47,644 nucleotides of DNA, from contig PBBE01000047.1 of assembly GCA_002716485.1 (NCBI GenBank), positions 1 to 47,644 on the forward strand, given 5' to 3'. This stretch comes from Actinomycetota bacterium (GTDB lineage: Bacteria; Margulisbacteria; Marinamargulisbacteria; GCA-2716485). The notes below the pieces were generated by a model. The model was not told where the DNA came from, did not search any database, and saw only the letters and a list, made by a program, of their open reading frames with translations. Position 1 is the stretch's first letter, and every line of letters begins with the position of its first letter. The position numbers and the translations under genes were made by a program. Positions 22,700 to 42,578 of this stretch are shown here, piece after piece.

Positions 22700-25600
22700 T
22701 TGTGGAGGAAAAGTTTTTAGAAGGAATCCATGAAAAATATGAGTTATTGTCTTATCAGGGACGCCGGGTTTTAGAGCGGCATTTTTTGTCGTCAGATGTG
22801 GCCCTTTTGCAACACTTTATGAAGGAATCGGGGGTGCTTAAAGCGTTGACGGAGCGTGTGGAAGGGGTGTTTTTGGAGCATTGCCCTACAGGTGGGTTTG
22901 ATAAAAAGATGATGTTTTATTTACCTGAAAAGGGACTTAGTTTGGGGCAATTGTTATCTAAAGGGCCGATGAGTATGTCGGACTTTTATGCGTTTATTTT
23001 ACCCTTATTATCCCGACTCAAAAAGGTATATGGGGCAGATTTTTTTCATGGGAACTTGAACCCGAATACCATTATTGTGGATTCAGAGAGCTTTGAAAGT
23101 TATTTCTTTTCAGTTTCATTTTATGCAGAATCTGAACAGGCGGTTCCGTTTTATATGGCCTTAGGGAAATCTATATTGGCTTATTGTGCGCCGGAACGGA
23201 CCCAGCGATTGACCTTGCCTTATGATCATCGCTCAGATTTTTATGCCTTGGGGTGCTTGATTTATGAGTGCTTAACGGGCACTTGTTTATTTGATTTTGA
23301 GAAGCCAGAAGAGATGGTTTTTGCCCATTTGACCCAATCGCCTCGGGAGTTGTTTGGATTGAAGGGGAAGGTGCCGGACTACTTTTCGCCAATGTTACTT
23401 AAAATTATTGAAAAGTTGTTGCATAAAGATCCTCATCAGCGGTATCAGGATATTGATAGTCTGATTTATGATATTTCTCAGACTCAGCGCTTGGCAAGTA
23501 CAGTAAGCTTTCCTTTGGATACCCAGGGGAAGTATCGGAATGTGGTTCTTTCTGATCAATATTATGGTCATCAAAAAGAAAAAGATCAGATGGTGAGTAT
23601 TTATAAGAATAGCTTAAAAAATTATCCGCAGTTGGTGTTAGTGGAAGGCGAGAAAGGGGCTGGAAAGACCCGGTTTGCACATTCTATATTACATGGGGCG
23701 TTTAAACCGTATCCATTTATTGTGTTGGTTTCATTGCAGCCAAAAAATCAAGAAGTGCCCTACTTTGGCTTAACTAAGTTGTTGGAGCAACTGGTATTTA
23801 AGTTGATTTCTCAGACCAACGAACAAGAAATAGAAGAGATTCGGCCGCAGTTACATTCGATTTCGGATGAGAATGTGGCTTTGTTGATGCAGTTGTGTAG
23901 TAGTTATTCGGCGTTATTGGAGTTTTTTGAGTTGGATACCAAAGTCACTCAGTCGACTCAAGTGGCTAATTTTGGCCATGCAGTGGTTCAGTTTTTATCC
24001 GTGGTGTCTTTAGTGAAGCCCTTGGTATTTATTTTTGATGGCTTAGAATTTGCAGATGAGGCCACGATTCGCTTTATTTCTCAAAGTTTAGTGGTTTTGA
24101 ATGATCGACCAGTAACGTTTGTTGGGACTATTGGGGATGAGGTGCTAGCGGAAGGGAATTTGGTATATTCAGTGTTGGTTCAGCCGTCTAAAACGATGTA
24201 TGACTATCATTTATTAAAGTTGTCGTTATTGACGGTAAGAGATATTAAGGCATTTATTAAAGATACATTTCACTATCGAGTGGAGCGATTGGATGAATTG
24301 GCGGCCATTATTATACAAAAGACTCATGGGAATCCGCACTATATCCGGCAAAGTGTATCCTTTTTATTAAAGGAAGGATACTTTAAGTATTTGACGGAAT
24401 CGTCGATTTGGAAGTGGAGTTCGGAGCAGGTGAAGTCCATTAAAGTGGCAGATTCAGCAGTTAATTTGCTTTTGGGTCAGTATCGGTCTTATTCAGATGA
24501 TATTCGCTTATTGGTTCAATATGCGGCATGCTTTAAAGATTCATTTACCATGCAGCAAATGGCGTCTTTATTGGGCTTTTCTAATGATGTTTTAATTCAA
24601 TATTTATTGACCTTAATTGACGATAATATTTTAGTCATGGTGAACCAATCGATTTATTTGCTTTCTTCTCGAACTTTAAGGGAGCAGTCGTACGTGCTAG
24701 AACAAGCTAGTTTTGATTTTTCGAATCCAAAGATTAGTGCCTTTATTTATGATCAAGTTGCGGCTCAGGAGCGATCTGAGGTGCATTTTCGGATTGGGAA
24801 GTTATTGTTGGGGCAGCAAGATCAATTGGATGAGATGTTTGCAGAATATAAGATTGTGAAGCATTTTAATTTATCTGACAGAGCGTATTTGGATAAATCT
24901 TTGGCGAGACAGTTGGTGAACTTGAATTTACTTGCGGGTCAAAAGTCGAAAGCAGCGGGGCATTATCAAAAGGCCTTGGTTTATTTTGATTTTGCCTTAA
25001 AGTTTTTAGATGCCTTGCATGATGAGTGGGATCAGCCGTTATGTTTTTCTATTTTATTGGAACGGGTGAGGTGTTTGTATTTTAGTGTGGGATATGAGGC
25101 GGCCTTAGATGCCATTTCCCAGGCATCTGAATATAGTATGTCGCGCTTGGATAAGGCCACCGTGTTGATGGAGCAATTATTTGTTGAAATTGAACAAAAT
25201 TACTTTAGGAAGGCGACGGAAACGGCTTATGAGATGTTGCGACATTGTGGGGTTTATTTACCCAAAATAAAGGCGGTTATTATTTTGTTTTTGATTTTGG
25301 AAGCGCAAAAGATTAAACGATTTATTCATTTGCCAATTGAGACGGATTTGGTTTTAGATCCCCAACAATCACGGCGATTAGAGTTGATGTTTCGGGGGTT
25401 TGAGCTATTAAATACAAGTGTGCATTTGGTGAATAATGAACTGTTTGCCTTATCGTCTCTTAAATTACTATCCGCGTCTTATCAGATGGGAGGCTCTGCT
25501 AATTCGGCCTCTGGTTTGACCATGTATTCATTTTGGTTAACTACCCAACATAAGTTAGATGAGGCATTTACTTTTTCTGAAAAGGCCATTGATATTAGTA

Positions 25601-27987
25601 ATCACTTTGGTGACCCGACGATGATTGGTCGGTCTTTGTTGGCTTATTATGGGTTGGTAGGGATTTGGAAGATTCCTTTAAGAGAGACAGCCCCTGGTTT
25701 GGAGAAGGCATTTCGTAATTTGATGTTTGCAGGGCAACCTAGTTACGCTGTTATATGCTTGATATTTTCATTTTTGAATCAATTTTTTGTGGGGGTCAAG
25801 GTGCCCTTGTTATCGCAGCATTTAGCGCGTATTTTTGGGTATTTGAAGGGGATGGGGGTTTCTCTTGAATCGACTTCAGAGGTTCCTGATGAGCCAATGT
25901 CGTCTAGTATGAGCTTGATTAAAGTAGATGGGACCTTAGTGGATGATTTAAATATGTATCACAAATTTGTTCAGGTTTTAGCGGGTGGTGGTGGCCATTT
26001 TGATGAAATAAATCAAATTGATTTTAAACAATTAGATGATCGTTTTGACGATGGGTCACCGGTAGGCGTCTTTATGATGGTTTTTTGCTTTTTTGATAGT
26101 CAATATGAAAAGGGGCTTGAGATTGGGGATCAGCTTTGGCGTATGATTAAAGATCGTCATTTGGCGGTTATTTATCCGTTGTATATCTATTATTATAGTT
26201 TATTGATTTATCAAGGCTTTCAGGGTGCAAGCCTAAGACGGAAATGGATTTATCGACGACGTTTGTCTTATATTGTGAAACTTTATGATGGGTTTCAAGA
26301 TCGCTGTCCCGAAAATTTTCGGACGATTTATTTGTTTTTGGATGCCAAGTTATCGCATTTGAGATCTCCTTCATTTAACACAGTTCGTTATTTTAATGAG
26401 GCCGTGAGTTTGGCCATTCAAGATCAGATGCCCCATGTGGCAGGCTTGTGTCATCAAGCATTAGCGGATATTTATGAAGAAGAAGGGGTGTACCATTTGG
26501 CGTATACTCATTTAAATGAGGCTGTTCATTATTATTCGAATTGGGGCTTGAGTTTGGGGGTTCAAGAGATGAAGCTTAAGGTTGAATCATTGTATGAAAA
26601 ATGTAATTTATCTAAAGGGTTTATGCTTAATTTTTCTCAAGGGCTGGATTTTAAACGTTTGATTAATGCGAGTCAGTCTTTATCTCAAGAGACGAATTGT
26701 AAGGCCTTATTAGAGCAATTATTGAAGGTGGCCATGGAAAGTGCGGGAGCACAAAAGGCGGTTATTATTCTAAAGAAAGGAACTGATTTTTTTGTGGAAG
26801 CATCCTTTGATCCGAAGGACAATCAGATGAAGGTGTTTCAATCGGTTCCGATTCAGTCGGCGGATATGTTACCGAAGTCTTTGATTCAGTATGTTATTTT
26901 TACTAAAACCAAATTGCTGATTCATAACGCGGAGGGGCATAAGTTATTTCGGACGGATCCGTATGTGATTCAGAATGAACCGAAGTCGGTCTTATGTTTG
27001 CCTATTTTTAAACAGGTGGCATTAACAGGAGTGTTGTATCTTGAAAATAACTTGGTTTTTGATGGGTTTTCTGAAGATTCCTTACAGGTGTTAGAGGTGA
27101 TTGTCTCTCAAGCCGCTATTTCTATTGAAAATGCAGTTTTACATGAGCAGAACCAAGATTTAATTCATAACTTAGAGGACCGGGTTTCGTCTCAAATTAA
27201 GCAAACGCAGATAGCTGAACAGGAAAAAAACCAGAGTTTGAAAATGGTGAAAAAAGTATCAGAGCATTCGGCTTATGCGACTTTGACTAGAGGAATAGCT
27301 CATGAGATTCGCAATCCGATGGGGCTTATTTTATCGGGAATGGAATTAATTTTGGATAATATTCATGATAAAGAGTTGGTTCAAACGTATGCTCAATCTG
27401 TGAAGCAGAGCATGTTGCAGTTGTCGAGTATTACAACGAATATGCTTAACTATGGGACCCCGGTTTCGGACAAACGAGTCAATATGTCGATTAATGAGTT
27501 GATCAAAGATGCGTTAATGATGGCACGAACAGAGTGTAAGAAACGACGAATTGTGGTGAAAACGATTTTTAGAGAGGTTCCTGATGTGTATGTGGATACG
27601 AATAGTATTAGTCAGGCGTTTTTAAATATACTATTAAATGCGATTGAGGCCATTGATATGAATGGTGAAATTCAAATAGAAACCTTTGAGAGTCAGTGGG
27701 TTAATGCGTCTGGTCAACAAGTGGAAGGGGTGAAAGTGTTGGTTCAAGATTCTGGAAAAGGGATTCCTCAAGATATCTTAGATGAGATCTATGACCCGTT
27801 TTTTACTACAAAACATCAAAATGTAGGATTAGGACTTTCTCTGGTATTAAAAACAATAAGAGAGCATGAGGGGTTAATTGATGTGATTTCAAATGATGCA
27901 GGCTTGACGTCGTTTATTTTGCATTTACCTAGACAAGGTATTATAGAAGGGCGACGTGAGGAGGCCCTTTCTCTTTCAGTTAAGTAG
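22696..27987 (+). CDS. Multidomain signalling protein: Ser/Thr pseudokinase - STAND-type ATPase - TPR-like - GAF - histidine kinase
   Basis: Kinase C-lobe YCAPER...DFYALGCLIYECLTG; Walker A EGEKGAGKTR; FIFDGLEFAD; GAF region near 26700-27150; HisKA RGIAHEIRNPM; HATPase NILLNAIEAI, DSGKGIP, GLGLSLV. GTG start overlaps the upstream stop (GTGA). Confidence 0.88.
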   Translation: MIVEEKFLEGIHEKYELLSYQGRRVLERHFLSSDVALLQHFMKESGVLKALTERVEGVFLEHCPTGGFDKKMMFYLPEKGLSLGQLLSKGPMSMSDFYAFILPLLSRLKKVYGADFFHGNLNPNTIIVDSESFESYFFSVSFYAESEQAVPFYMALGKSILAYCAPERTQRLTLPYDHRSDFYALGCLIYECLTGTCLFDFEKPEEMVFAHLTQSPRELFGLKGKVPDYFSPMLLKIIEKLLHKDPHQRYQDIDSLIYDISQTQRLASTVSFPLDTQGKYRNVVLSDQYYGHQKEKDQMVSIYKNSLKNYPQLVLVEGEKGAGKTRFAHSILHGAFKPYPFIVLVSLQPKNQEVPYFGLTKLLEQLVFKLISQTNEQEIEEIRPQLHSISDENVALLMQLCSSYSALLEFFELDTKVTQSTQVANFGHAVVQFLSVVSLVKPLVFIFDGLEFADEATIRFISQSLVVLNDRPVTFVGTIGDEVLAEGNLVYSVLVQPSKTMYDYHLLKLSLLTVRDIKAFIKDTFHYRVERLDELAAIIIQKTHGNPHYIRQSVSFLLKEGYFKYLTESSIWKWSSEQVKSIKVADSAVNLLLGQYRSYSDDIRLLVQYAACFKDSFTMQQMASLLGFSNDVLIQYLLTLIDDNILVMVNQSIYLLSSRTLREQSYVLEQASFDFSNPKISAFIYDQVAAQERSEVHFRIGKLLLGQQDQLDEMFAEYKIVKHFNLSDRAYLDKSLARQLVNLNLLAGQKSKAAGHYQKALVYFDFALKFLDALHDEWDQPLCFSILLERVRCLYFSVGYEAALDAISQASEYSMSRLDKATVLMEQLFVEIEQNYFRKATETAYEMLRHCGVYLPKIKAVIILFLILEAQKIKRFIHLPIETDLVLDPQQSRRLELMFRGFELLNTSVHLVNNELFALSSLKLLSASYQMGGSANSASGLTMYSFWLTTQHKLDEAFTFSEKAIDISNHFGDPTMIGRSLLAYYGLVGIWKIPLRETAPGLEKAFRNLMFAGQPSYAVICLIFSFLNQFFVGVKVPLLSQHLARIFGYLKGMGVSLESTSEVPDEPMSSSMSLIKVDGTLVDDLNMYHKFVQVLAGGGGHFDEINQIDFKQLDDRFDDGSPVGVFMMVFCFFDSQYEKGLEIGDQLWRMIKDRHLAVIYPLYIYYYSLLIYQGFQGASLRRKWIYRRRLSYIVKLYDGFQDRCPENFRTIYLFLDAKLSHLRSPSFNTVRYFNEAVSLAIQDQMPHVAGLCHQALADIYEEEGVYHLAYTHLNEAVHYYSNWGLSLGVQEMKLKVESLYEKCNLSKGFMLNFSQGLDFKRLINASQSLSQETNCKALLEQLLKVAMESAGAQKAVIILKKGTDFFVEASFDPKDNQMKVFQSVPIQSADMLPKSLIQYVIFTKTKLLIHNAEGHKLFRTDPYVIQNEPKSVLCLPIFKQVALTGVLYLENNLVFDGFSEDSLQVLEVIVSQAAISIENAVLHEQNQDLIHNLEDRVSSQIKQTQIAEQEKNQSLKMVKKVSEHSAYATLTRGIAHEIRNPMGLILSGMELILDNIHDKELVQTYAQSVKQSMLQLSSITTNMLNYGTPVSDKRVNMSINELIKDALMMARTECKKRRIVVKTIFREVPDVYVDTNSISQAFLNILLNAIEAIDMNGEIQIETFESQWVNASGQQVEGVKVLVQDSGKGIPQDILDEIYDPFFTTKHQNVGLGLSLVLKTIREHEGLIDVISNDAGLTSFILHLPRQGIIEGRREEALSLSVK

Positions 27988-31269: not shown

Positions 31270-32463
31270 TTACTTTGCTAATAGTTCTATTACTTCTTTG
31301 TTGTTTGGATCGATTTCAATGGCACGTTGCCAACTATCAAAGGCCAAGTCTTCCAGTCCTAATTCATAATAAATGGAGCCAAGCCGGATATATAGTAGTG
31401 GTTGGGTAGGGTCAATTTGGATGGCTTGATTTAACTTGTTAAGTGCCATTTGGTAGCGTTTTTGTGAATAGTATTTGAATGAGTCAGAATAAAGGGCCAT
31501 GACTTTGCCGCTTTGCTTAGGTGCGACTTCAAATGGGAGGTCATGTTTTTTTCTGGGCCTCATTTCTTCTATTTTACTGGCCAATTGGGTTTTAAATCCA
31601 TCTACATCTTTTAATAAAGTGAGCCGTAATTTTTCAAGTTCATCCAATTCACCTTGGTATTGGTGCCATAAGTCTTCGATTTTATTGCCTAGTTTTTGGT
31701 ATTTTTTTTCATAGGCTTCAATTTCAGCACGTTGGTTTGAATAGGCGGATTTCATGCTGTTTTTTAGGGTGAATCCTACCGTTAGGTATCGGGAGGGGGC
31801 GTTATTATATTCCTCGTTGGCATCGCCTGAATGAGAAAGCTCGGTGAGGGCGATATTAATTTCAGTTTCTTTAGACGCATGAAACCGGTATCCAAAGTTG
31901 AAATCTTTGGTGTCATGTTCGAATATAATGGCGCCATTAAAAATATTGATTTCAAAGGCATAATAGAGACCGTTGCTGGTACTGATGCTTTTGATGGAGC
32001 TGAATTCTCGTTTGCCAAACCCGATATGTAGCCTTGAAAAGGGCGGTCCGAAATAAGTGGTTAAATAGGGGGAATAAAAATTTTCTTTTCCGGGACTCAC
32101 ATCGATCTTATTAGAACGGCTTGAGAGTTGTTTTTGGTTGCTAATATTTGCAATTCCGCCGGAGGCACCCACTAATTTTTTCATAAAAAAGTTCCAATGG
32201 ATATTAGCTGCAAATTGTTGGGGGCTTAAAATGGTGATGCCCGCTTTTATTTTTTCAGTGAGGCAGTAATTGAGCATCAGGTCAAATTCATGGGAGTAAT
32301 CTCGACTTAGTGCAAAAATCGTGCTTAGTTCAATGTCTCCACTTTGATGGGCTTTAGTCCCTGGAACATTGATTAAACTGGATGGGTAATGAAAGGCAGT
32401 GCTATAAACGGGGGTGTTTAAAAGACTGATGATAAAAATAAAGGTTCCGAGAATAATTCTCAT
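31270..32463 (-). CDS. Secreted barrel-like protein with coiled coil and C-terminal TPR (paralogue 2)
   Basis: Signal peptide; beta-rich N-term; C-term YYSQKRYQMALNKLNQAIQIDPTQPLLYIRLGSIYYELGLEDLAFDSWQRAIEIDPNNKEVIELL. Confidence 0.75.
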   Translation of the reverse strand: MRIILGTFIFIISLLNTPVYSTAFHYPSSLINVPGTKAHQSGDIELSTIFALSRDYSHEFDLMLNYCLTEKIKAGITILSPQQFAANIHWNFFMKKLVGASGGIANISNQKQLSSRSNKIDVSPGKENFYSPYLTTYFGPPFSRLHIGFGKREFSSIKSISTSNGLYYAFEINIFNGAIIFEHDTKDFNFGYRFHASKETEINIALTELSHSGDANEEYNNAPSRYLTVGFTLKNSMKSAYSNQRAEIEAYEKKYQKLGNKIEDLWHQYQGELDELEKLRLTLLKDVDGFKTQLASKIEEMRPRKKHDLPFEVAPKQSGKVMALYSDSFKYYSQKRYQMALNKLNQAIQIDPTQPLLYIRLGSIYYELGLEDLAFDSWQRAIEIDPNNKEVIELLAK

Positions 32464-32465
32464 GA

Positions 32466-33758
32466 TTAGTTGCTAATGGCTTTATTTGGGCTAATAGGGG
32501 CTTGTTGGGGGATTGTTTCTGTTTTGTTTTGTGGGGTATCTTTTTTTTCTTTGGTTTTTTTTTGGGTTTTTTTTGATTCTCTGATTAGTTCTTTTTTGAT
32601 TTGTTTGAGATAGTTTACGATGTCTTTGTTTTTGGGATCAATTCGTAGGGCCATTTTCCATGCTGCTTTTGCCTTCTTATAATCTTTAAGTTTGAAGTAA
32701 ATGGAGCCAAGTCGGGTAAAGCCAACTGCAGAATTGGGGACGATTTTGACCACATTTAAGTATTCTTTTAAGGCATTTTGGTAGTCTTCATCATAGTAAA
32801 ACTCAAGGCCTCGCTGCATATGGACAAAGGCCCGTTTACTTGGATAACTTTCTTTGGGAAGGCCATCTTTTTCAAATGCGTCGGATAGGGTTTCTTCTAG
32901 GTCTTTTAGAAAGCCGGTTTGTTTGATAAGTTGATGGGTTTTTTCCACATCTTCTAGATTGTTTAGTCGAGTGTCGATATTATCGTAAGTTGAATTGAAT
33001 TCTTGACGTCCTACTAATAGGTCAGTGAGGCTATCTAAGACATTGCTGGCATAACTGACGCCGAATGAAAATAATCGTATTTCATGGCTAGGGTCTAATA
33101 TTTTGGGTCTTGCCGCCGTCCATGTTAAATAAATACGGGCTTTTTTTAGGTTGTATTTAAGACCAAGATTCGGAGAAAACCCGTCATATTCGGCAATAAT
33201 GGTTCCAAAGAGCATGCTTTTTTCAAAACCGCCTACAACACGTGTGATATTGGGTCTAATTCGATCAGAGGCGATTCCAATATGATAATTAGAGTTAAAT
33301 TTTAGTGATGAAATGGAGTAGATTGCAAATAAGTTCATAATGGGAATATTAGGAGCAGAGTCAATTTGCGGGATACTTCCCCAGCCTAGGTTTTTGAGAC
33401 CAATTCCAATATTATGTTGGATGGTTTTTTTTCTGTTTTGTCTTACAAATGGGGCGAAGTGAAAGCTATGAAGGGTATTCATGGTGTCTTGGACATTAAG
33501 GTTATATTCAAAGCGATCGGATAGTGCCCAGCGTAAATAAAATAATGTTCTAAAATAGACGGTGGCAGAGTCCGGGGTTTTGGCTCGGTAATCAAACATG
33601 GCACCATATTCAGTAAACCCCATTTTTTCCATTTTGGCAGAGGGGACTGTGATGAGGTCGTTTGATCCGGAAAAGCCAAATAGAAGCCCGTTTGAAAAGC
33701 CCCAAAATAGACTTAATAAAATGATAAGTTGTGGCTTAATGCGCATGTTGATCATCAT
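32466..33758 (-). CDS. Secreted barrel-like protein with C-terminal TPR (paralogue 1)
   Basis: Signal peptide; SNDLITVPSAKMEKMGFTEYG...; C-term RLGSIYFKLKDYKKAKAAWKMALRIDPKNKDIVNYL matches the downstream paralogue. Exact start uncertain (33758 or 33746). Confidence 0.75.
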   Translation of the reverse strand: MMINMRIKPQLIILLSLFWGFSNGLLFGFSGSNDLITVPSAKMEKMGFTEYGAMFDYRAKTPDSATVYFRTLFYLRWALSDRFEYNLNVQDTMNTLHSFHFAPFVRQNRKKTIQHNIGIGLKNLGWGSIPQIDSAPNIPIMNLFAIYSISSLKFNSNYHIGIASDRIRPNITRVVGGFEKSMLFGTIIAEYDGFSPNLGLKYNLKKARIYLTWTAARPKILDPSHEIRLFSFGVSYASNVLDSLTDLLVGRQEFNSTYDNIDTRLNNLEDVEKTHQLIKQTGFLKDLEETLSDAFEKDGLPKESYPSKRAFVHMQRGLEFYYDEDYQNALKEYLNVVKIVPNSAVGFTRLGSIYFKLKDYKKAKAAWKMALRIDPKNKDIVNYLKQIKKELIRESKKTQKKTKEKKDTPQNKTETIPQQAPISPNKAISN

Positions 33759-34257
33759 TTAAGGGGTCAAACTTATGGCATATATGAATAAGGCCTAACT
33801 CTTTTTGGTTAAGGGTACATTGGATTTGAGCGACTTGTAGTTGTTGGTCAGGAAAAAAGCATTGGCATTGTTCTTTTTTGGTTTCGCAGCGAGTAAGCTC
33901 GACGGGCTTATTGAGCTTAAGATAGAGTTGTTTAGTATCTTGGGACAGTTGAGATGAGAACAGGGATTCACTTGATGTTAAAATGTGTTCGGGTCGTTTA
34001 GTTACAATGCCATCACCTCCTAACATTCGGTCTGCTAATGCATAGATAATAGGGAGGTCAAAATTAAATAGAATGGGTTGGTTGTTTTCTTCAAATAATA
34101 GGGTGAAATTAAAGTCAGGTAATTGCTCTAGGAGGACATTAAAGGGCTGGTGCTTAAATTCAATATGAGTCATTTGAATCGAAATTTTGAGCTGTGATGC
34201 GATATGATCAGATAAGTTGAGTGCAAGTTGTTTATAAAATGGCTCAAATTGTGTCAT
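33736..34257 (-). CDS. FliM middle-domain-like protein (173 aa), no SpoA/FliN C-terminal domain apparent
   Basis: FNFDLPIIYALADRMLGGDGIVTKRPEHILTSSES matches the FliM GG signature region; directly downstream of motB. Confidence 0.6.
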   Translation of the reverse strand: MTQFEPFYKQLALNLSDHIASQLKISIQMTHIEFKHQPFNVLLEQLPDFNFTLLFEENNQPILFNFDLPIIYALADRMLGGDGIVTKRPEHILTSSESLFSSQLSQDTKQLYLKLNKPVELTRCETKKEQCQCFFPDQQLQVAQIQCTLNQKELGLIHICHKFDPLNDDQHAH

Positions 34258-34274
34258 TGGACGTCCTTCCTATG

Positions 34275-34928
34275 TTATTGTACCGTTTCTTTAACGAGAA
34301 TGCTAATACGGCGGTTATTGGCTCTGTTTTGTTTGGAGGTATTCGGTGCAATTGGTTTGGTATCTGCATACCCAGTTACACGAAGACGGTGTGAGTTAAT
34401 TTTAGATTGAATTAGTCGTCTGGCTACGGCAGATGCTCTGGCAGCAGATAGTTCCCAATTAGATGGATAGATATCGGATTGGATGGGAATATTATCGGTA
34501 TGACCTTCAATAATAATTTGGCCGTTACTTTGTTGAAGAAGATGGCTGATTTTAATTAATATTTTGGAGGTGTTTGTTTTTATGCTGGCTTTACCCGAGT
34601 CAAATAATATTTCTGAACCTAGATTAATACGGATATTTTGGGGGGTTTGGATGATTTCAATATCATTTTCAAGTTGGTTTTCTATAATATAGGCATTTAG
34701 TGTATCGCTAATGTCTTGGAGTTGTTTTTGCTGATTTAAAAGGTCATTGAATGGGGAGTCGTTATTGTTGCTGAATGTATTGCTTAATGACGCTTGTGAT
34801 TCAATATATTTTCCGATATCGATTTCAGAAATAGAGTATAAATAAATGAAAAAGACGAGTAATAGAGTTAATAAGTCTGCCCAGCAGACAATAAAATGAT
34901 TTTTAGGTTGCTCGTTTAATTCATTCAT
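34275..34928 (-). CDS. motB: MotB-like stator protein (OmpA-like peptidoglycan-binding C-terminus)
   Basis: CWADLLTLLLVFFIYLYSIS plug/TM with conserved Asp; IIIEGHTDNIPI...NWELSAARASAVARRLI. Confidence 0.92.
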   Translation of the reverse strand: MNELNEQPKNHFIVCWADLLTLLLVFFIYLYSISEIDIGKYIESQASLSNTFSNNNDSPFNDLLNQQKQLQDISDTLNAYIIENQLENDIEIIQTPQNIRINLGSEILFDSGKASIKTNTSKILIKISHLLQQSNGQIIIEGHTDNIPIQSDIYPSNWELSAARASAVARRLIQSKINSHRLRVTGYADTKPIAPNTSKQNRANNRRISILVKETVQ

Positions 34929-35695
34929 TTGTTTGGTTTGAGCTTTTTACGCTCTTTTTCGGGTAGGCACATGGACATTTTTTCATAGATCATATAATTG
35001 GTCTCTTTTTGGGCAATGCAGATGATGCCTTCTAAGAGCATTTTCTTTTGGATTAGTTCTTCATTACTTGCAATTCGTAGACGACCTGATAGGGGTTGAA
35101 AAATGAGGTTCGCCAATAGGATGCCATAGAATGTTGTAATCAATGCGATGGCCATGTTAGGACCAATCGTCTCAGGGCTTTCTAGTTCTGACAGTAAGTT
35201 AATCAGTCCAATTAATGTGCCAATAAATCCGAATCCTGGAGCATATTGGGCCATTTGCTCAAAAAAATGGATACCTTGGTTATGTCGAGACTGGATAAAG
35301 TCAATATTTTTTTCTAAGATGGGAACTAATTCTTTGACGGGGATATTATCAATGAGTAGTTGAAGACCATGTTTTAAATAATGGTCTTGGGTTTTTTTGA
35401 CGGTTTTTTCGAGAGATAAGCGGCCATTTTTTTTGTAGTTAGTGGCGATTTCGCTCATGTGTTTGATGTCTTGTAAGTAGTCTCTGCCTCGTGGCGAGAA
35501 AATAACTTTTAACCGGCCACCAATTCGAAATAGCTGGGTTAATGGGAAATGGACGAGGGTGGCACCGAAAGTGCCGCCCATGACAATTAGAAATGAGGTT
35601 GGATGTACAAATAAATGGATTCCTTTTTCGATGCCAATGGCTTGAATAATGAGCCCGCAACCTAATAATACGCCTAAAAATGCGGTGATGTCCAT
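34925..35695 (-). CDS. motA: MotA-like stator protein
   Basis: GTFGATLVHFPLTQLFRI...YAPGFGFIGTLIGLINLL...MAIALITTFYGILLANLIFQPLSGRL; 4-nt overlap with motB. Confidence 0.93.
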   Translation of the reverse strand: MDITAFLGVLLGCGLIIQAIGIEKGIHLFVHPTSFLIVMGGTFGATLVHFPLTQLFRIGGRLKVIFSPRGRDYLQDIKHMSEIATNYKKNGRLSLEKTVKKTQDHYLKHGLQLLIDNIPVKELVPILEKNIDFIQSRHNQGIHFFEQMAQYAPGFGFIGTLIGLINLLSELESPETIGPNMAIALITTFYGILLANLIFQPLSGRLRIASNEELIQKKMLLEGIICIAQKETNYMIYEKMSMCLPEKERKKLKPNK

Positions 35696-35699
35696 GTGC

Positions 35700-36698
35700 T
35701 TACTCCCTTTTTTCGATTAGTTCTGATAATGGGTTGACTTTGTTGTTTCGTTCGAGTTCACGTGCTGTTTGAATAATATTTTTTTGGGCGATTTTGGCAT
35801 CATTTTCATTGAGCTCTTTGGGCAAGTTACTGATTTCTTCTTCTAACATGAACTTAAGTCGTTCGGAGAGGTTTTCTAGAATTCTATTTTTCACGTTGAT
35901 ATTAGAAATACTAAGGGCTGCTGCTAAGGTGCTTAATGGATCAATAGCGTATAGTAGACTTTGAAGATCTTTATCAGATAGATTGATTAAGTCTCCAAAT
36001 TCAAGCATATAGGATTTGATTTTTTGACTGGCTTCTTGGTCGCTTTGTTCAAAGTGGGTCATAATTGCACTCATATGTTCAGGGTTCATCACTTCGAGAC
36101 TTAAGGATAATTTGAGGTATGGATCTGTGCTTTCTTTGCTCACTTTTTCTTTTAATAATTGGTCTTTGAGGTGATGATGGATCTTCCAAGCCAAGCTAAT
36201 ATTGGGGATGTCTATTTTGAGTAGTTTTGAGGTGATGAGAATACTGATGTCTTTTTCAAATTGGGATAATAGTTGGGCCATTTTGTCTTCCGGTAAAAAA
36301 GAGCAAATAAGGGCGCTTAGTTGCGGTGGTTCATTTAATAAAAATTGGGTGAGCTTTTCATTATCAACTTGGTTAAGAAAGTGGAATAATTGGTCACTTT
36401 TTTCAAATAATGACGCATGGGAAATATCTGGAAATGATTGTTCAAAGAGATGGCTGGGGAGTAGTTCACCACCAAAGTGGGATCGCTTTCCGTTTAATAG
36501 GGTATGAAATTCTTCGATAATTGGTGAGGAGATATCTTCTTTAATATGTCCTAACTTTGACATGCTTTGTAGGAGTTGGGTGCTTTGTGTTTTTCCCAGT
36601 TTATTGAGTACTTCATGGGTTACCCCTGGGGACTCGACCTCTAAAGATAAGAGCAAGATGGCTGCTTTTTGGATAGGGGTATAGGTATCATCATTCAT
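35700..36698 (-). CDS. FliG-like rotor/switch protein
   Basis: TPIQKAAILLLSLE N-term; C-term LEFGDLINLSDKDLQSLLYAIDPLSTLAAALSISNINVKNRILENLSERLKFMLEEEI. Start trimmed to MNDDTYTP. Confidence 0.82.
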   Translation of the reverse strand: MNDDTYTPIQKAAILLLSLEVESPGVTHEVLNKLGKTQSTQLLQSMSKLGHIKEDISSPIIEEFHTLLNGKRSHFGGELLPSHLFEQSFPDISHASLFEKSDQLFHFLNQVDNEKLTQFLLNEPPQLSALICSFLPEDKMAQLLSQFEKDISILITSKLLKIDIPNISLAWKIHHHLKDQLLKEKVSKESTDPYLKLSLSLEVMNPEHMSAIMTHFEQSDQEASQKIKSYMLEFGDLINLSDKDLQSLLYAIDPLSTLAAALSISNINVKNRILENLSERLKFMLEEEISNLPKELNENDAKIAQKNIIQTARELERNNKVNPLSELIEKRE

Positions 36699-37788
36699 TA
36701 TTGATGTCTCCTTCTTGTTCTTGGTCTTTAATCCAGCCCATAATGGTGTGGGCAACTGCTTCTGGTTTTTTTAATGAGATATTGGCCAGTTCTTTTCGTT
36801 TCTGTTTAAAAAGTCGTAGTTGTCGTTTTGCTTCTAGAGCTGCTTTTTTTTGAGCGTCTTCTTGTTTTTTTAAAATGGCTGCTTTTTTTTCTTTGATTTG
36901 ACGTCGAAGAAATAGTCCTAGTTTTGTTAGAAAGTAGAGAAGTAAGAGTAATATGCTAGTAATAAATAATTTGAAGTCTTGAGCGGCAATAAAAGATTTA
37001 GTGGTATCAAAAAAGGGTTTATGTCGGGCAAGAAAGCGTTGGATAATAAATAAGGGGCCTTGAAATGGGGTGTATTGGATGTCGAGTTGGTCTTGTCGTG
37101 TAGGGTTAAATCCTGAGATTGATTGGATAAGTGATTTTAAAGTGTCGGTGTCAATGGGGATTAGTTGTGTGGAAGCGCTATCAAGTAAAATTTGGATTTG
37201 CATTTGTTGGATTATGTTTTTGGGGCTGGAAATAGTTTCATTGGTTTCATTGTAGTAAATGGATTCAATCTTTTCGGAGATACTGGTATTTACCTTTTGT
37301 ATTTTTTCTTTGGGGATGCTTGGTTTAATACTTTCGACGACGACGCCAGGAAAGCCTGGTAGTGCGGATTCATTACTTTGACGTTGGGTAATGAGCCCAG
37401 GAAGTTTAAGTCCGTCTTTATAGAGCTGTTGTAACATTTGAGCAGATTGTCTAAGCGGGACCTGGGGAATGATATCACCATTTAGTTTTTGTTGGCGTTG
37501 GGTAATGATTCGATTTGGGGTTAGTTCTTTAGATTTTTGGATACGATGTTCGGGGATATCTAAGTTAACGGCGATGATAAAGGCAGTTTCAGGATAGAAT
37601 TTTTTGAGTAGTAGATGGATGTCTCCTTTAATTTTAAGGCTTTGTCGTTCTGGAAATGATAGGGATTGATGGGGGCGACGCTCAGATAGCCAGTTAGTGA
37701 TTTTATTGGGGGTTCTGAATAGAAAAAAGGTCCCCAAGAGGATGGCGATAATCAGGATGGGTAAATAAGGTGATTTATGTGTCGTCAT
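36691..37788 (-). CDS. Reduced FliF-like MS-ring protein
   Basis: TM1 LPILIIAILLGTFFLF; PGFPGVVVESI; VNTSISEKIESIYYNETNE; TM2 FITSILLLLLYFLTKLGLFL; C-tail LKKPEAVAHTIMGWIKDQE is FliF-like (FliG-binding). Start trimmed to MTTHKS. Confidence 0.78.
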   Translation of the reverse strand: MTTHKSPYLPILIIAILLGTFFLFRTPNKITNWLSERRPHQSLSFPERQSLKIKGDIHLLLKKFYPETAFIIAVNLDIPEHRIQKSKELTPNRIITQRQQKLNGDIIPQVPLRQSAQMLQQLYKDGLKLPGLITQRQSNESALPGFPGVVVESIKPSIPKEKIQKVNTSISEKIESIYYNETNETISSPKNIIQQMQIQILLDSASTQLIPIDTDTLKSLIQSISGFNPTRQDQLDIQYTPFQGPLFIIQRFLARHKPFFDTTKSFIAAQDFKLFITSILLLLLYFLTKLGLFLRRQIKEKKAAILKKQEDAQKKAALEAKRQLRLFKQKRKELANISLKKPEAVAHTIMGWIKDQEQEGDINNE

Positions 37789-39073
37789 TAGTTTTAAAAA
37801 TTTGGATTCGGTTATTACCAGAATCAACGACATATAAGGTGCGGGCACTACTATCATAGTGTAATTGACGAGGGAATTTAAACTCACCTGTATCGCTGCC
37901 TTCTTGGCCCCAGTTGGCAACGTGAAGGCCGGTTCTTATATCAAATATTTGGATACGATGATTAAACGTGTCTGAAACGTATAGATGGTGGTTGGCGCTA
38001 TCTATGGCCATGCCTTCTGGGCTTTTGATATTGCCTGTACTGGTACCATATTTAATTGTATTAAATTGGGTGAGCTCATTATTGCTTAATCGTTGTACAA
38101 TACTTAATTCTTTGTTGACGATGTAGACATCGTTATCATAATGGGCCAGATCATAGGCAAATAAGGTGGCGTTACTGTCTTGGAATGAGCTTGTGGGGCC
38201 AGTGTGGATCCGGTGGTCATCGAGGCTGCTATAGACCACCGATGTGAGATTGCTTGGGTTGGCTCTGACGGCAATGGGGTTATCTAGATTGTTGATCGGG
38301 ATAAAGGGATCTCCACTTTCTCCCCAATTATCAGGGTCAAATTTGATGATACGGTTATTACCAGAATCAGCGACCCAGATTCTGCTCCCGTCATAGGTGA
38401 GTCCTCGGGGATATCTAAATTGAAACTCGCCAGACCCTGCAGTGCCATAGGTGGCCATTAAGCTGCCAGAGGGGGCATATTTTTGGATTCGAGAGTTTAG
38501 GGTGTCTGATACATAAATATTTTTGTTGCTATCTAGGGTAATGCCCGTGGGATGGATGAGTGCGTCATTGGGGGTAATATTGAGTTGATGGGACATAAAT
38601 CCGGTATATTTGAGTGCTTTGGGTGAGGATGATGAAAATGTGTAATTTCTAGTTGAAATGGCTTGTAAAATAAAATTATAAGTAGTAAAGCCTTCACTTA
38701 ACTTTTGCTCAAGGATATATTGGTATATGATGGCATTGTTAATGGAAATATTTTCAGTGATAATTAGTAGGTCTTGGTTGTTTTTATTAGGTTCAACAGG
38801 GAATTGTTGGATGTATTGGTAGGGCTGGGTGCTTCCTTCGGTTTTGAAAGCCAATTTGTAATGGTCTACATTTTCGGGGTTATTGATAATCCATTTGATG
38901 GTAATAAATTGGGTGGCTTTATCGAGTTCGATTGATGAGATCATTGGAATGCTTTGAAAATCGTCAAATTTAACAGTGGCGGTTAAATTATCGATGGGGC
39001 TGGATGTGCAGCCGATAATCAGGCCTAAGCAAAGAAGGATTGTACTGACTTCGATATGCAGCCTTTTGATCAT
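37775..39073 (-). CDS. NHL-repeat lipoprotein
   Basis: Lipobox LIIGC; repeated IYVSDTLNSRIQKYAPSG, IWVADSGNNRIIKFD, LYVSDTFNHRIQIFD, LYVVDSGNNRIQIF. Confidence 0.88.
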   Translation of the reverse strand: MIKRLHIEVSTILLCLGLIIGCTSSPIDNLTATVKFDDFQSIPMISSIELDKATQFITIKWIINNPENVDHYKLAFKTEGSTQPYQYIQQFPVEPNKNNQDLLIITENISINNAIIYQYILEQKLSEGFTTYNFILQAISTRNYTFSSSSPKALKYTGFMSHQLNITPNDALIHPTGITLDSNKNIYVSDTLNSRIQKYAPSGSLMATYGTAGSGEFQFRYPRGLTYDGSRIWVADSGNNRIIKFDPDNWGESGDPFIPINNLDNPIAVRANPSNLTSVVYSSLDDHRIHTGPTSSFQDSNATLFAYDLAHYDNDVYIVNKELSIVQRLSNNELTQFNTIKYGTSTGNIKSPEGMAIDSANHHLYVSDTFNHRIQIFDIRTGLHVANWGQEGSDTGEFKFPRQLHYDSSARTLYVVDSGNNRIQIFKTNDDT

Positions 39074-40917
39074 CGACTTAGCCTTTCTAGTTCATTTTTT
39101 AAGGCAATATTCTCTGATTTAAGGGCATTAATTTCGCTTTGTTGGGCTTTAATAGATTCAATGATAAGACCGATTAATGGCGTCATGTTCAATGTTTTAT
39201 ATCCGCTGGGATCGGTGCCTACTAGGTTTGGGTAAATATCTTCGACATTTTGGGCGATTAAACCGATTTGGCTGCCCTCTGGAAAGGACCGTTCGGGAAA
39301 CTCGTCTTGACGCCATTCATAAGTGACCCCATTGAGTTCAGAAAGGGAAGCTATGGGAGTTGAAATGGCCTTGATCTCTTTTTTTAAGCGCCGATCAGAT
39401 GGTGTGCTGAGTGCCATTCCGGGGGTTCCTGCCATAAAGGTGGTGCCAGTGACATGTAAGTCGCCGGTGATCTTAATGCCGGCACCGTAGTCATTGATTT
39501 TTCCTAATTCTAAATTGGTTCTGGCTGCTTCTGCAGTGGTGCCGCCGGTACCTCCCTTGCTTATGGCAATGATGGGGAGACGGTTGGCAGGGACCTCTTG
39601 GGCGTAGGTGGTGGTGATATTGGTATTGCTTAAATTGGTCATGGTGGCTGTTCCTGTAATATCACCAGTAAGTGTAATAACGGGATCATTGACATCAAAG
39701 CTTAGTGTTTTATTGGGATGGCTGCCAGCGCCATCTATAGAAATGCCATTCTCTGTATTGTCATTGACCATTTTGATTACTTCGTCTCTTACTTCATTTC
39801 CATTTAATCCGCCACCAGCCCCGGCGGGAACGTTAGATAGCCAGTTGTAGTGGATTCGACCGGCGCCTGTTGGCTCATCATCAAGGTCAACTTTTTTATA
39901 AAACGTATTTTCAGTATAGCTTGTAATGGCTTTTTCAGTAGGAATTGCGCTATCACTATTTCCTGTAAAGGTGGCATCACTACTGAACTCGTTGACTGGA
40001 ACCCCTGAGTTAAGGAGAAGTGTGCCTTTGACTTCAAGGGTTTCACTGGGATTGGTGGTATTAATACCGACATTGCCTTTATTATAGAAAATTTCATTGG
40101 CTTCACTGCCGTCTTCCCAGCGCCCTGCATTTTCGTCCACATAGGTTTTGATGGCTTTTTCAGTGGGAATACTGTTGTCACTATTGCCAGCAAGGGAGGT
40201 ATCGGTACTAAAGTTGTTAATCGCGGTTCCAGAATTTAAAAGAAGGGACCCGTTCTTGATATGAAGTTTCTCGGTTGGGTTGGTGATGCCAACGCCTACA
40301 TTGCCAGAGAGATAATAAATTTCATCGCTGTCATCACGCTCTTTCCATTTTCCACCGTTTTCTTTGATGTATTCGACAATGGCCAATTGGGATGCAATTT
40401 TATTATCACTTGGATTGGTAAAGGTGATGTCGGTACTTAGTGCTTGGATTTCGTTACCATTGTTAATTGTAATGCTTTTAACCTTAATGGATTGCTCGTT
40501 ACCAAATAATGATGGGACTAGGTCAATTGCATAGGGGGCGGCTGTGAGTGAGTGGGTTAGGGGGATGGTTACTTGGTCAATGGTATAGGACTCCGCCCCT
40601 TCGATGCTAAATTGCAAGTTTGGGGTGGGGATATCAAGTAGGTTTGGGGTTAAAGGGGTGCTATGTCCCAAGGTAAGATCAGCATGGCCATCCACAAAAG
40701 AGACCCCAATTAATGTTTCACTCCAAGCGGTTGCGGTGGTATCTGAAAATAGTGCGATTTTCACTCGCTTGTAGCCGTTAATAGGGCCGTTTTGGTCAGA
40801 AAGGTTTAATGTGATGGGGATGACTTTGGATGCCGCTATGATAGGGCTGCTATTTTTAATTAATAGGCCGGAGATAAGGGCGCTCCAAATAAGTATTTGA
40901 AAGAAATAGCGTTTCAT
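39070..40917 (-). CDS. Secreted fibre-like protein with C-terminal Peptidase_S74 intramolecular chaperone domain
   Basis: Signal peptide; tandem repeat modules (GNVGVGITNPTEKLHIKNGSLLLNSG / GNVGINTTNPSETLEVKGTLLLNSG); C-term PSDRRLKKEIKAI...LNGVTYEWR...QIGLIAQNVEDIYPNLV then coiled coil. Confidence 0.88.
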   Translation of the reverse strand: MKRYFFQILIWSALISGLLIKNSSPIIAASKVIPITLNLSDQNGPINGYKRVKIALFSDTTATAWSETLIGVSFVDGHADLTLGHSTPLTPNLLDIPTPNLQFSIEGAESYTIDQVTIPLTHSLTAAPYAIDLVPSLFGNEQSIKVKSITINNGNEIQALSTDITFTNPSDNKIASQLAIVEYIKENGGKWKERDDSDEIYYLSGNVGVGITNPTEKLHIKNGSLLLNSGTAINNFSTDTSLAGNSDNSIPTEKAIKTYVDENAGRWEDGSEANEIFYNKGNVGINTTNPSETLEVKGTLLLNSGVPVNEFSSDATFTGNSDSAIPTEKAITSYTENTFYKKVDLDDEPTGAGRIHYNWLSNVPAGAGGGLNGNEVRDEVIKMVNDNTENGISIDGAGSHPNKTLSFDVNDPVITLTGDITGTATMTNLSNTNITTTYAQEVPANRLPIIAISKGGTGGTTAEAARTNLELGKINDYGAGIKITGDLHVTGTTFMAGTPGMALSTPSDRRLKKEIKAISTPIASLSELNGVTYEWRQDEFPERSFPEGSQIGLIAQNVEDIYPNLVGTDPSGYKTLNMTPLIGLIIESIKAQQSEINALKSENIALKNELERLSR

Positions 40918-41010
40918 TGAAGTTGGGTCCTAAATACTTGTGATTTTGATATAGACGGGCTCCTTTATTCTATCCTTTTTATGGCCTGGAGTCCAATTTT
41001 TAAGCGACTA

Positions 41011-41937
41011 CTAGGTCTTTTTTTTAAGTGACCAATGTAATGAAAACAGGTGGGACTGGGGGACTTGAGGATGGCTGTTGGGTAAGAATGCGTATTGGAG
41101 TTGGAGTTGATTTAGATTAAGACTTAGCCCGGTACTTGCTTGTATGAGGTCTAGGTTATGGTGTTGGGAATATCCAAAATATATCGATAGGAGCGAGACT
41201 TGTGTGGGATGTAAAATGATGCCTAGTGCGCTGATCATGGCGTTTCGGGTGGGGTGGCTTTTGGTTTGGCTTCTGATGCTAAAGTGTCTGGATTGGAATT
41301 GATGGCTGATGATGATTTGGGTGGGGTAGTGGGCGCTGATGCGTTGGTTTTGGTAGTTTTGATGGAAAGGGTGCTTTATCAGGTGATTAATAATCAGGGA
41401 ATAGTGATGGGCGGATTGGGTCCAATATGCGCCGATGCCAGCATTGATATTATTGAATATATTCTGGTCGATTTCAGTGCGAATCCAAGATGTTTTGAGA
41501 CCGAGGTAAGCATGGGGAGATAGGCGGGTAGCGATGATATGGTTGAGTTCTAGGTGTTGATAATGAAAGCTGTGGTGAATGATTGGGTAGTCATTGATCA
41601 GGGTGCTGTGGTGTAACTGCGAGACACTGGTTTTCATTAGGCCGATTCCCATGGGGATGTTTTTGAATGGGAACGTGCTCGCGAATTGTTGGTACTGGAT
41701 TTCGTTTAGGATACGGGTGTTAAATAAGGAAAAGGATGGCGATTTGATACGCCCAATTGTGGCTGGGTTTCCGAAGACGCTGCTGGCATGATCTGAAAAG
41801 CCTTGGATGTTGCCGCTGCCGATCATTTTGGCACTATTGCCCAAGTGACTGGCTAAAAATGATTGGCTTTGCTTGCCCCAACTGGGGCTGCTTAGGAGTA
41901 GGAGTATTATAGCGAAGGTAGGGCGTTTATTGATCAT
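41011..41937 (-). CDS. PorV/PorQ-like outer-membrane beta-barrel protein
   Basis: SFLASHLGNSAKMIGSGNIQGFSDHASSVFGNPATIGRIKSPSFSLFNTRIL is typical of this OM family N-terminus; aromatic/basic beta-strand pattern. Confidence 0.6.
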   Translation of the reverse strand: MINKRPTFAIILLLLSSPSWGKQSQSFLASHLGNSAKMIGSGNIQGFSDHASSVFGNPATIGRIKSPSFSLFNTRILNEIQYQQFASTFPFKNIPMGIGLMKTSVSQLHHSTLINDYPIIHHSFHYQHLELNHIIATRLSPHAYLGLKTSWIRTEIDQNIFNNINAGIGAYWTQSAHHYSLIINHLIKHPFHQNYQNQRISAHYPTQIIISHQFQSRHFSIRSQTKSHPTRNAMISALGIILHPTQVSLLSIYFGYSQHHNLDLIQASTGLSLNLNQLQLQYAFLPNSHPQVPQSHLFSLHWSLKKKT

Positions 41938-42506
41938 GGGAGGCTTACCATTTTACCTTTACCAAGGATGGTTTTTTTAGTTGAAATTAGATAAAAATAA
42001 ATGGCGCTACTTAACGCGCTATTGGGGAGTGATTTTTTGGAAAAAGAAAAGGTATTGATCCCAGATTTTCCGCCGCTTTCTCCTGATGAGAACTGGGCCT
42101 GGTAGACCCGCTGGCCACTCATATCATAAATGTCGATGTTAATATCTGCGTTTTGGTTTAAGTGATAGTAGAGGGTGGTGCCAGAATTGATTCGGAATGG
42201 GTTGGGGTAATTTAAGGGGGCTTTTTCAAGTTGGATGGGGGCAATATCTTCATGAATCACTTCATCACTGCTGCTGTGTTGGTTGGCAGGGGGCTTGGCT
42301 TGTGAGTGTGGCATGTTAAAGGTATTGGGATGACTGGTGATGGTTCCGTAGATGGGTGTATCCATGAGGGTGTGTTGGCTTTGGTGTTGGCGTTTAAAAA
42401 GGGGTTCTTTTGCGGTGGTGTTGGTGATGGGGCTACATAAGCAAAGGATTAGTATCCCTTGGAAGAGTCGGGTTGATCGTTTAATTAGGAAGAGGTTTTG
42501 TTTCAT
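41934..42506 (-). CDS. Secreted protein with FlgD-like/type-A sorting-like C-terminal domain
   Basis: LNYPNPFRINSGTTLYYHLNQNADINIDIYDMSGQRVYQAQFSSGESGGKSGINTFSFSKKSL. Start trimmed to MKQNLFLIKR. Confidence 0.7.
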   Translation of the reverse strand: MKQNLFLIKRSTRLFQGILILCLCSPITNTTAKEPLFKRQHQSQHTLMDTPIYGTITSHPNTFNMPHSQAKPPANQHSSSDEVIHEDIAPIQLEKAPLNYPNPFRINSGTTLYYHLNQNADINIDIYDMSGQRVYQAQFSSGESGGKSGINTFSFSKKSLPNSALSSAIYFYLISTKKTILGKGKMVSLP

Positions 42507-42578
42507 TCTAGTTTTATTATTGACGATTAGGATAGGGAAATACAAGTCTGAATTTAGGTGTTTAAGTGGAGTGAAGAA

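Follow-up and report, generated by a model that had tools for sequence, protein, structure and literature searches.

A conserved operon for a probable free-standing rotary motor of flagellar descent, with outer-membrane barrel partners, in Marinamargulisbacteria

The stretch of DNA analysed here (the window) is the 47,644-nucleotide contig PBBE01000047.1 of assembly GCA_002716485.1, which is numbered C47 in a draft genome of 1.40 Mb (56% complete) whose relatives bear the name Candidatus Marinamargulisbacteria. An operon of flagellar-motor-like and envelope genes occupies positions 42545 to 31270 of its minus strand (Table 1), with the core order FliF - FliG - MotA - MotB - FliM - TPR1 - TPR2. 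All of the open reading frames (ORFs) named in an initial annotation of this DNA were present, with the start of the surface genes corrected from 42506 to 42545. The sole sizeable gap in the run was that of 93 bases between the PorV and S74 genes; all other genes overlapped or almost abutted (FlgD/sorting-domain gene to PorV, -4 bases; S74 to NHL, -4; NHL to FliF, -14; FliF to FliG, -8; FliG to MotA, 4; MotA to MotB, -4; MotB to FliM, 17; FliM to TPR1, -23; TPR1 to TPR2, 2). Promoter-like sites did not exceed those in shuffled sequences and terminator-like sites were fewer than in shuffled sequences, so that no operon boundary was proved by either. The locus is inherited vertically within the order: the same tgt and RsbV/RsbW/HemW genes flank the cluster in both the window and locus L016, and this speaks against a contaminating contig.

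Table 1. Genes of the operon, in order of transcription, with window coordinates.
Feature	Position	Strand	Support
Secreted protein with FlgD-Ig/type IX secretion system (T9SS) type A-like sorting domain	41934..42545	-	TIGR04183
PorV/PorQ-like outer-membrane protein	41011..41937	-	NF033709 3e-8, below NCBIfam cut-off
S74 (endosialidase chaperone) fibre-like surface protein	39070..40917	-	Peptidase_S74 1e-13 (Pfam)
NHL beta-propeller lipoprotein with lipobox IIGC; overlap with fliF	37775..39073	-	NHL 3e-28 (Pfam)
FliF-like: first transmembrane segment, RBM3 with collar insert, second transmembrane segment, FliG-binding tail; without RBM1/RBM2	36691..37788	-	Pfam, profile, Foldseek
FliG: N, M and C domains	35700..36698	-	Pfam, PDB 1lkv, residues mapped to E. 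coli FliG
MotA stator subunit: R90 replaced by K; E98, P173 and P222 retained	34925..35695	-	Profiles and residue mapping
MotB: transmembrane segment with Asp32, OmpA-type peptidoglycan-binding domain	34275..34928	-	Profiles and residue mapping
FliM: restricted to the middle domain, with GGxG and without SpoA	33736..34257	-	Pfam, profile against structures
TPR1: TPR2 paralogue with a signal peptide, a predicted outer-membrane barrel and a TPR at the C terminus	32466..33758	-	Profiles; adjoins FliM in window-type clusters
TPR2: protein with signal peptide, predicted 12-strand barrel, helix of 64 residues and TPR	31270..32463	-	AlphaFold, Foldseek, linkage

Homology was assessed with Pfam, with family profiles built from relatives and compared with solved structures, with Foldseek and by residue mapping. 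These analyses upheld the annotated minus-strand run of FliF-like, FliG-like, MotA, MotB and FliM-middle genes and two TPR/barrel paralogues: the C-terminal half of FliF, FliG, MotA, OmpA, NHL and Peptidase_S74 were all matched, and FliM fell slightly under its cut-off. The FliF-like protein, whose most likely start is the ATG at 37788 (a longer ORF from a TTG runs into its neighbour), matched YscJ_FliF_C above cut-off (4.5e-8), and its family profile aligned to residues 238-558 of Salmonella FliF (2.4e-12). The 18 best PDB matches of its predicted model in Foldseek were all FliF MS-ring chains, with weak E values of about 0.01-0.15. Transmembrane segments were located at residues 6-24 and 266-284, and the C-terminal tail, which binds FliG in flagella, was conserved in sequence. 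PF01514, the RBM1/RBM2 part of a full MS-ring FliF, was absent from the window protein; the only copy in this genome that carries it lies on contig C5. The collar insert contained the motif LPGFP in the window and in 12 other window-type clusters. LPG[FYW]P had 21 occurrences among the 275,849 residues of ORFs read, all of them in FliF-like proteins and none in flagellar FliF.

FliG, with its most likely start at 36698 (here too a longer ORF from a TTG runs into the neighbour), matched FliG_C (1.9e-22), FliG_N (2.9e-12) and FliG_M (4e-9), all above cut-off, and its family profile matched T. maritima FliG (PDB 1lkv) at 5e-39. The torque charge R281 and the acidic residues E288/E289 (E. coli numbering) were retained, as in most window-type relatives. 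FliM scored 26.0 bits in Pfam (9.8e-6), just under the cut-off of 27.0, with the match confined to the middle domain, and its family profile matched solved FliM middle domains (1.7e-5); the SpoA genes of this genome are on contig C58, with the export system. MotA matched MotA_ExbB (8.5e-25) and its nearest models were of the MotP/MotA/PomA type. MotB matched MotB_plug (6e-11) and OmpA (2e-21), and Asp32 was kept in all readable copies. The initial annotation had stated that the cluster holds no rod, hook, filament, FliE, FliN or export genes. Indeed, none was found when all cluster ORFs were scored, nor was any gene for the SctV/FlhA export gate of a type III secretion injectisome.

The distribution of these genes was surveyed in 75 Margulisbacteria genomes, in which 60 neighbourhoods were read. 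A first search recovered FliF-like proteins from 10 of the 75, and a FliG_C search found FliG in 32 genomes, several with four to seven copies. The 60 neighbourhoods fell into three kinds of motor cluster. The window kind, FliF-FliG-(MotA-MotB)-FliM-TPR1-TPR2, with FliF and FliG fused at times, occurred in at least 16 of the 75 genomes (G000, G004-G006, G008, G011, G013, G014, G023-G026, G029-G031 and G033), a few of these clusters ending at contig edges; the core order is thus conserved across the phylum. One such cluster is on L029 (NZWE01000021.1), titled Actinomycetota bacterium NAT535, which is a Margulisbacteria contig whose label looks wrong. The second kind, a TPR protein followed by a fused FliF::FliG (about 480 residues), MotA and MotB, was present in most genomes of the class and is more widespread than the window kind. 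In nearly all of the fusion-type FliGs R281 and the acidic pair were lost, including the copy in this genome on contig C35 (L026:9749-13691; 487 residues), and LPGYP or a related form was frequent in the fusions. The third kind comprised a FliF::FliG fusion and a second short FliG, often with giant proteins of 1500-2400 residues carrying Ig-like repeats; loci of this kind were seen in flagellated Margulisbacteria (L096, L097, L099, L101, L103, L109 and L111). Canonical fliEFGHIJ together with flagellins was found only in families f18-f20, which also carry extra motors. In f19 clusters (L018:3693-5254, L019, L020 and L021) a protein of 109-111 residues and a coiled-coil membrane protein of about 390-500 residues with DUF6115 were observed shortly downstream of TPR2.

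In a tree of FliG, the window-type, other motor and flagellar proteins formed three groups (support 97/92, 97/94 and 96/90); in a larger tree the window-type group had support of 84/73, with the long-branch member L120 outside it. A scan of the collection with a FliG alignment found Margulisbacteria only, although this single narrow pattern says little about other phyla. FliG on plasmids was ordinary flagellar or type III secretion FliG only (20-25% identity). The ratio of nonsynonymous to synonymous rates (dN/dS) was 0.07-0.20, compared with 0.13 for the adjacent tgt, a rough measure with dS near saturation, and the motor core is under purifying selection. A decaying remnant of a lost flagellum, with which the absence of flagellin from the lineage would agree, is hardly tenable: the ORFs are intact, their order is conserved across distant families at a dN/dS of about 0.1, the cluster has dedicated new partners and several copies per genome, and the selection test already contradicts decay.

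In Foldseek the TPR2 model gave two sets of matches, one to outer-membrane barrels such as OmpG and FapF, the other to TPR domains. Among 13 strong TPR2 matches in the phylum, 11 lay inside window-type clusters; the twelfth, in G006, adjoined a FliF-like gene, the FliG/FliM pair of that genome being elsewhere, and the thirteenth was at a contig end. The two barrel-TPR proteins are the conserved envelope partners of the motor. The four upstream genes differ in this respect, and their link to the motor is real in the window operon and lies outside the conserved core. Co-expression of S74 and NHL with the motor is likely because S74 overlaps NHL and NHL overlaps fliF; both fall outside the core because no homologue of either was found in the other motor clusters read. 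The PorV-like protein had a homologue in L086 (1.8e-16), and homologues of the FlgD/sorting-domain protein adjoined other motors in L086, L118, L119, L021 and L074. Of the upstream pair in the initial annotation, the sorting domain exceeded its threshold (TIGR04183, 37 bits against a cut-off of 23) and the PorV match stayed under its threshold. Proximity of PorV-like barrels and T9SS-type sorting domains to several motors would suit a role as the motor for type IX-like secretion or gliding, acting in place of PorL/PorM (GldL/GldM). This is very improbable, since the SprA translocon was found above cut-off in none of the 75 genomes (weak partial matches covered residues of about 580-715) and the PorV and FlgD genes, near some motors only, are missing from most clusters.

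Flagellar-type export genes of this genome were found outside the window, on contigs C5 and C58, and flagellin (PF00669) was absent from 7/7 genomes of the order and from 26/27 of the class (the exception being G002). The C5 locus (L013, G000:C5:12000-31900) contained FlgF, FlgG, FlgA, FlgH, FlgI, FlgJ-like, FlgB/FlgC-like, FliE, FliF and a truncated FliG, and the C58 locus (L014) contained FlhA/FlhB/FliPQR/FliN and a sigma factor. The FlgB-, FlgC- and FlgF-like proteins seem to begin with Sec signal peptides, which is odd for type III substrates. The C5 FliG comprised only FliG_N and half of FliG_M, and in nearly all genomes the FliG adjoining the full FliF was short (about 150-256 residues, some cut by the end of the stretch). 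Within the class, FlhA was present in 22/27 genomes, full FliF in 24/27 and SpoA proteins in 22/27. The export side has thus lost its torque domain and the motor side RBM1/RBM2, in keeping with published work: RBM3 alone forms rings (PMC8786727); the i-loop of the M-ring RBM2 serves the export gate, which the MS-ring houses through RBM2 (PMC8092281).

The C5/C58 export, rod and ring genes and the window FliG and MotAB could conceivably form one machine, the window encoding the motor of a flagellar-type apparatus coded far away. Both sets are in this genome; the export half has only a shortened FliG, and the stretches of it that were read contained no MotAB. This arrangement is nevertheless quite unlikely. 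A full-ring FliF and a FliG_N partner already belong to the export half, the window FliF is without RBM1/2, and most f19 genomes, with a complete canonical flagellum and its own FliG, keep a window-type cluster too. Moreover, four genomes (G001, G010, G020 and G021) carry the export half but no FliG_C whatsoever, which supports the view that the export half and the motors would work apart. No full flagellar regulon lacking a second motor set was found elsewhere in this genome, which has two FliG-MotAB sets (window and C35).

We consider it likely that the window operon encodes an ion-driven rotary motor that descends from that of the flagellum and stands on its own, in which MotAB turns a ring coupled to outer-membrane barrels. 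This reading is built on observed gene content, homology, conserved linkage, intact torque and ion residues, purifying selection and a cluster free of export, rod and filament genes. The RBM3-only FliF would form an S-ring in the inner membrane, with FliG seated on its C-terminal tail and the FliM middle domain bracing the FliG ring. The OmpA domain of MotB would anchor MotA5B2 units to peptidoglycan, and these units would push on FliG so that the ring turns by ion flow. Because RBM1/RBM2, which house the flagellar export gate, are lost, the ring would be one without export. Its periplasmic side (the collar insert with LPGFP) would be coupled, probably via the TPR domains, to the outer-membrane barrels, each of which is predicted to extend a helix about 95 angstrom into the periplasm; binding of the LPGFP segment by a TPR domain is a guess. 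From such coupling the output would therefore be at the outer membrane or surface, as surface motility (possibly gliding), adhesin movement or envelope work, and not a filament. The initial annotation is supported as far as a genuine, phylum-wide FliF/FliG/MotAB/FliM set that is not a flagellum is concerned, but coupling to S74 and NHL is confined to this operon.

Several points weigh against a rotary motor of this design. Rotation is a prediction from residue conservation, and the torque residues K264 and R297 (E. coli numbering) are lost from the window FliG. No known rod-like drive shaft is present, and the route of torque across the periplasm and the TPR/collar/barrel order are hypothetical. 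The predicted structures of FliF and TPR2 are of low confidence (pLDDT 63 and 69, respectively), and G005, G006, G030 and G031 have no MotAB in the cluster and would need stators from elsewhere. An energised envelope machine without full rotation would fit the outer-membrane barrel partners: MotAB would serve as Tol/Exb/Agl-like stators and FliF/FliG as a scaffold for linear or stepwise movement of outer-membrane proteins or cargo. MotAB relatives act in this way in the Tol, Exb and Agl systems. AglRS, ExbBD and TolQR are named among stator relatives, with AglRS in a non-flagellar stator clade (PMC12505986). Such a machine is unlikely here, as the FliG_C charges and the torque-interface residues K90/E98 of MotA are kept, which a pure scaffold would not need, and the FliM middle domain is kept with its GGxG.

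A broader proposal, for and against which we see the case as evenly balanced, is that the flagellum has been divided in this lineage into a non-rotating export half, with rod, rings, export gate and a FliG without torque domain, and at least two free-standing rotary motors, those of the window and the FliF::FliG-fusion types, the window type driving outer-membrane barrel-TPR complexes. If true, trans-envelope rotary motors would gain a new class. It bears on the old evolutionary question of whether the flagellar rotor-stator module can work without secretion, rod and filament. In a 2025 survey, 11% of non-motile species had rotor genes but none for the filament, and the authors raised an alternative function for rotor parts (PMC12199754). 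Here a conserved gene set under selection has rotor and stator alone with defined new partners, the export part surviving separately in the lineage, and provides concrete proteins for asking if FliF, FliG and MotAB suffice for a minimal rotor that turns, and which load it would drive. No published description of these clusters was found in the open-licence literature (preprints not covered).

Elsewhere in the window, two adjacent, very large plus-strand ORFs (1457 and 1763 residues) were observed at 18326-27987, the second resembling a kinase-AAA-GAF-histidine kinase chimera. A low-complexity repetitive ORF with repeats like QNKTTSNAMSK lies at the contig end (47301-47642).

Among known systems, the bacterial flagellar motor shares with the window set the FliF RBM3 and FliG-binding tail, a three-domain FliG with R281 and the acidic pair, the FliM GGxG middle domain, and MotA/MotB with Asp32 and an OmpA peptidoglycan-binding domain. 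Unlike it, the window set is without RBM1/RBM2, FliN, SpoA, export gate, rod, hook and filament, and has barrel-TPR outer-membrane partners, the FliF LPGFP motif and a separate FliG clade. The SpoIIIAG sporulation ring of Bacillus is not known to have a FliG-binding tail, a FliG or a stator. SpoIIIAG is alike in being an RBM3-type ring protein with a collar and without RBM1/2 (PMC8092281). The PorLM (GldLM) motor of Bacteroidota T9SS and gliding is also an ion-driven envelope motor, and PorV-like and sorting-domain neighbours occur in some of the clusters described here, but its rotor and stator proteins are different and no SprA was found above cut-off in the phylum. In the Agl-Glt gliding motor of Myxococcus, as proposed for the window operon, no flagellum is involved and a MotA/B-like stator acts on partners in the envelope and outer membrane; this motor is not known to contain a FliF/FliG ring. 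The stators also differ, AglRS belonging to a non-flagellar clade (PMC12505986) and the window MotA being nearest to MotP/MotA/PomA-type models.

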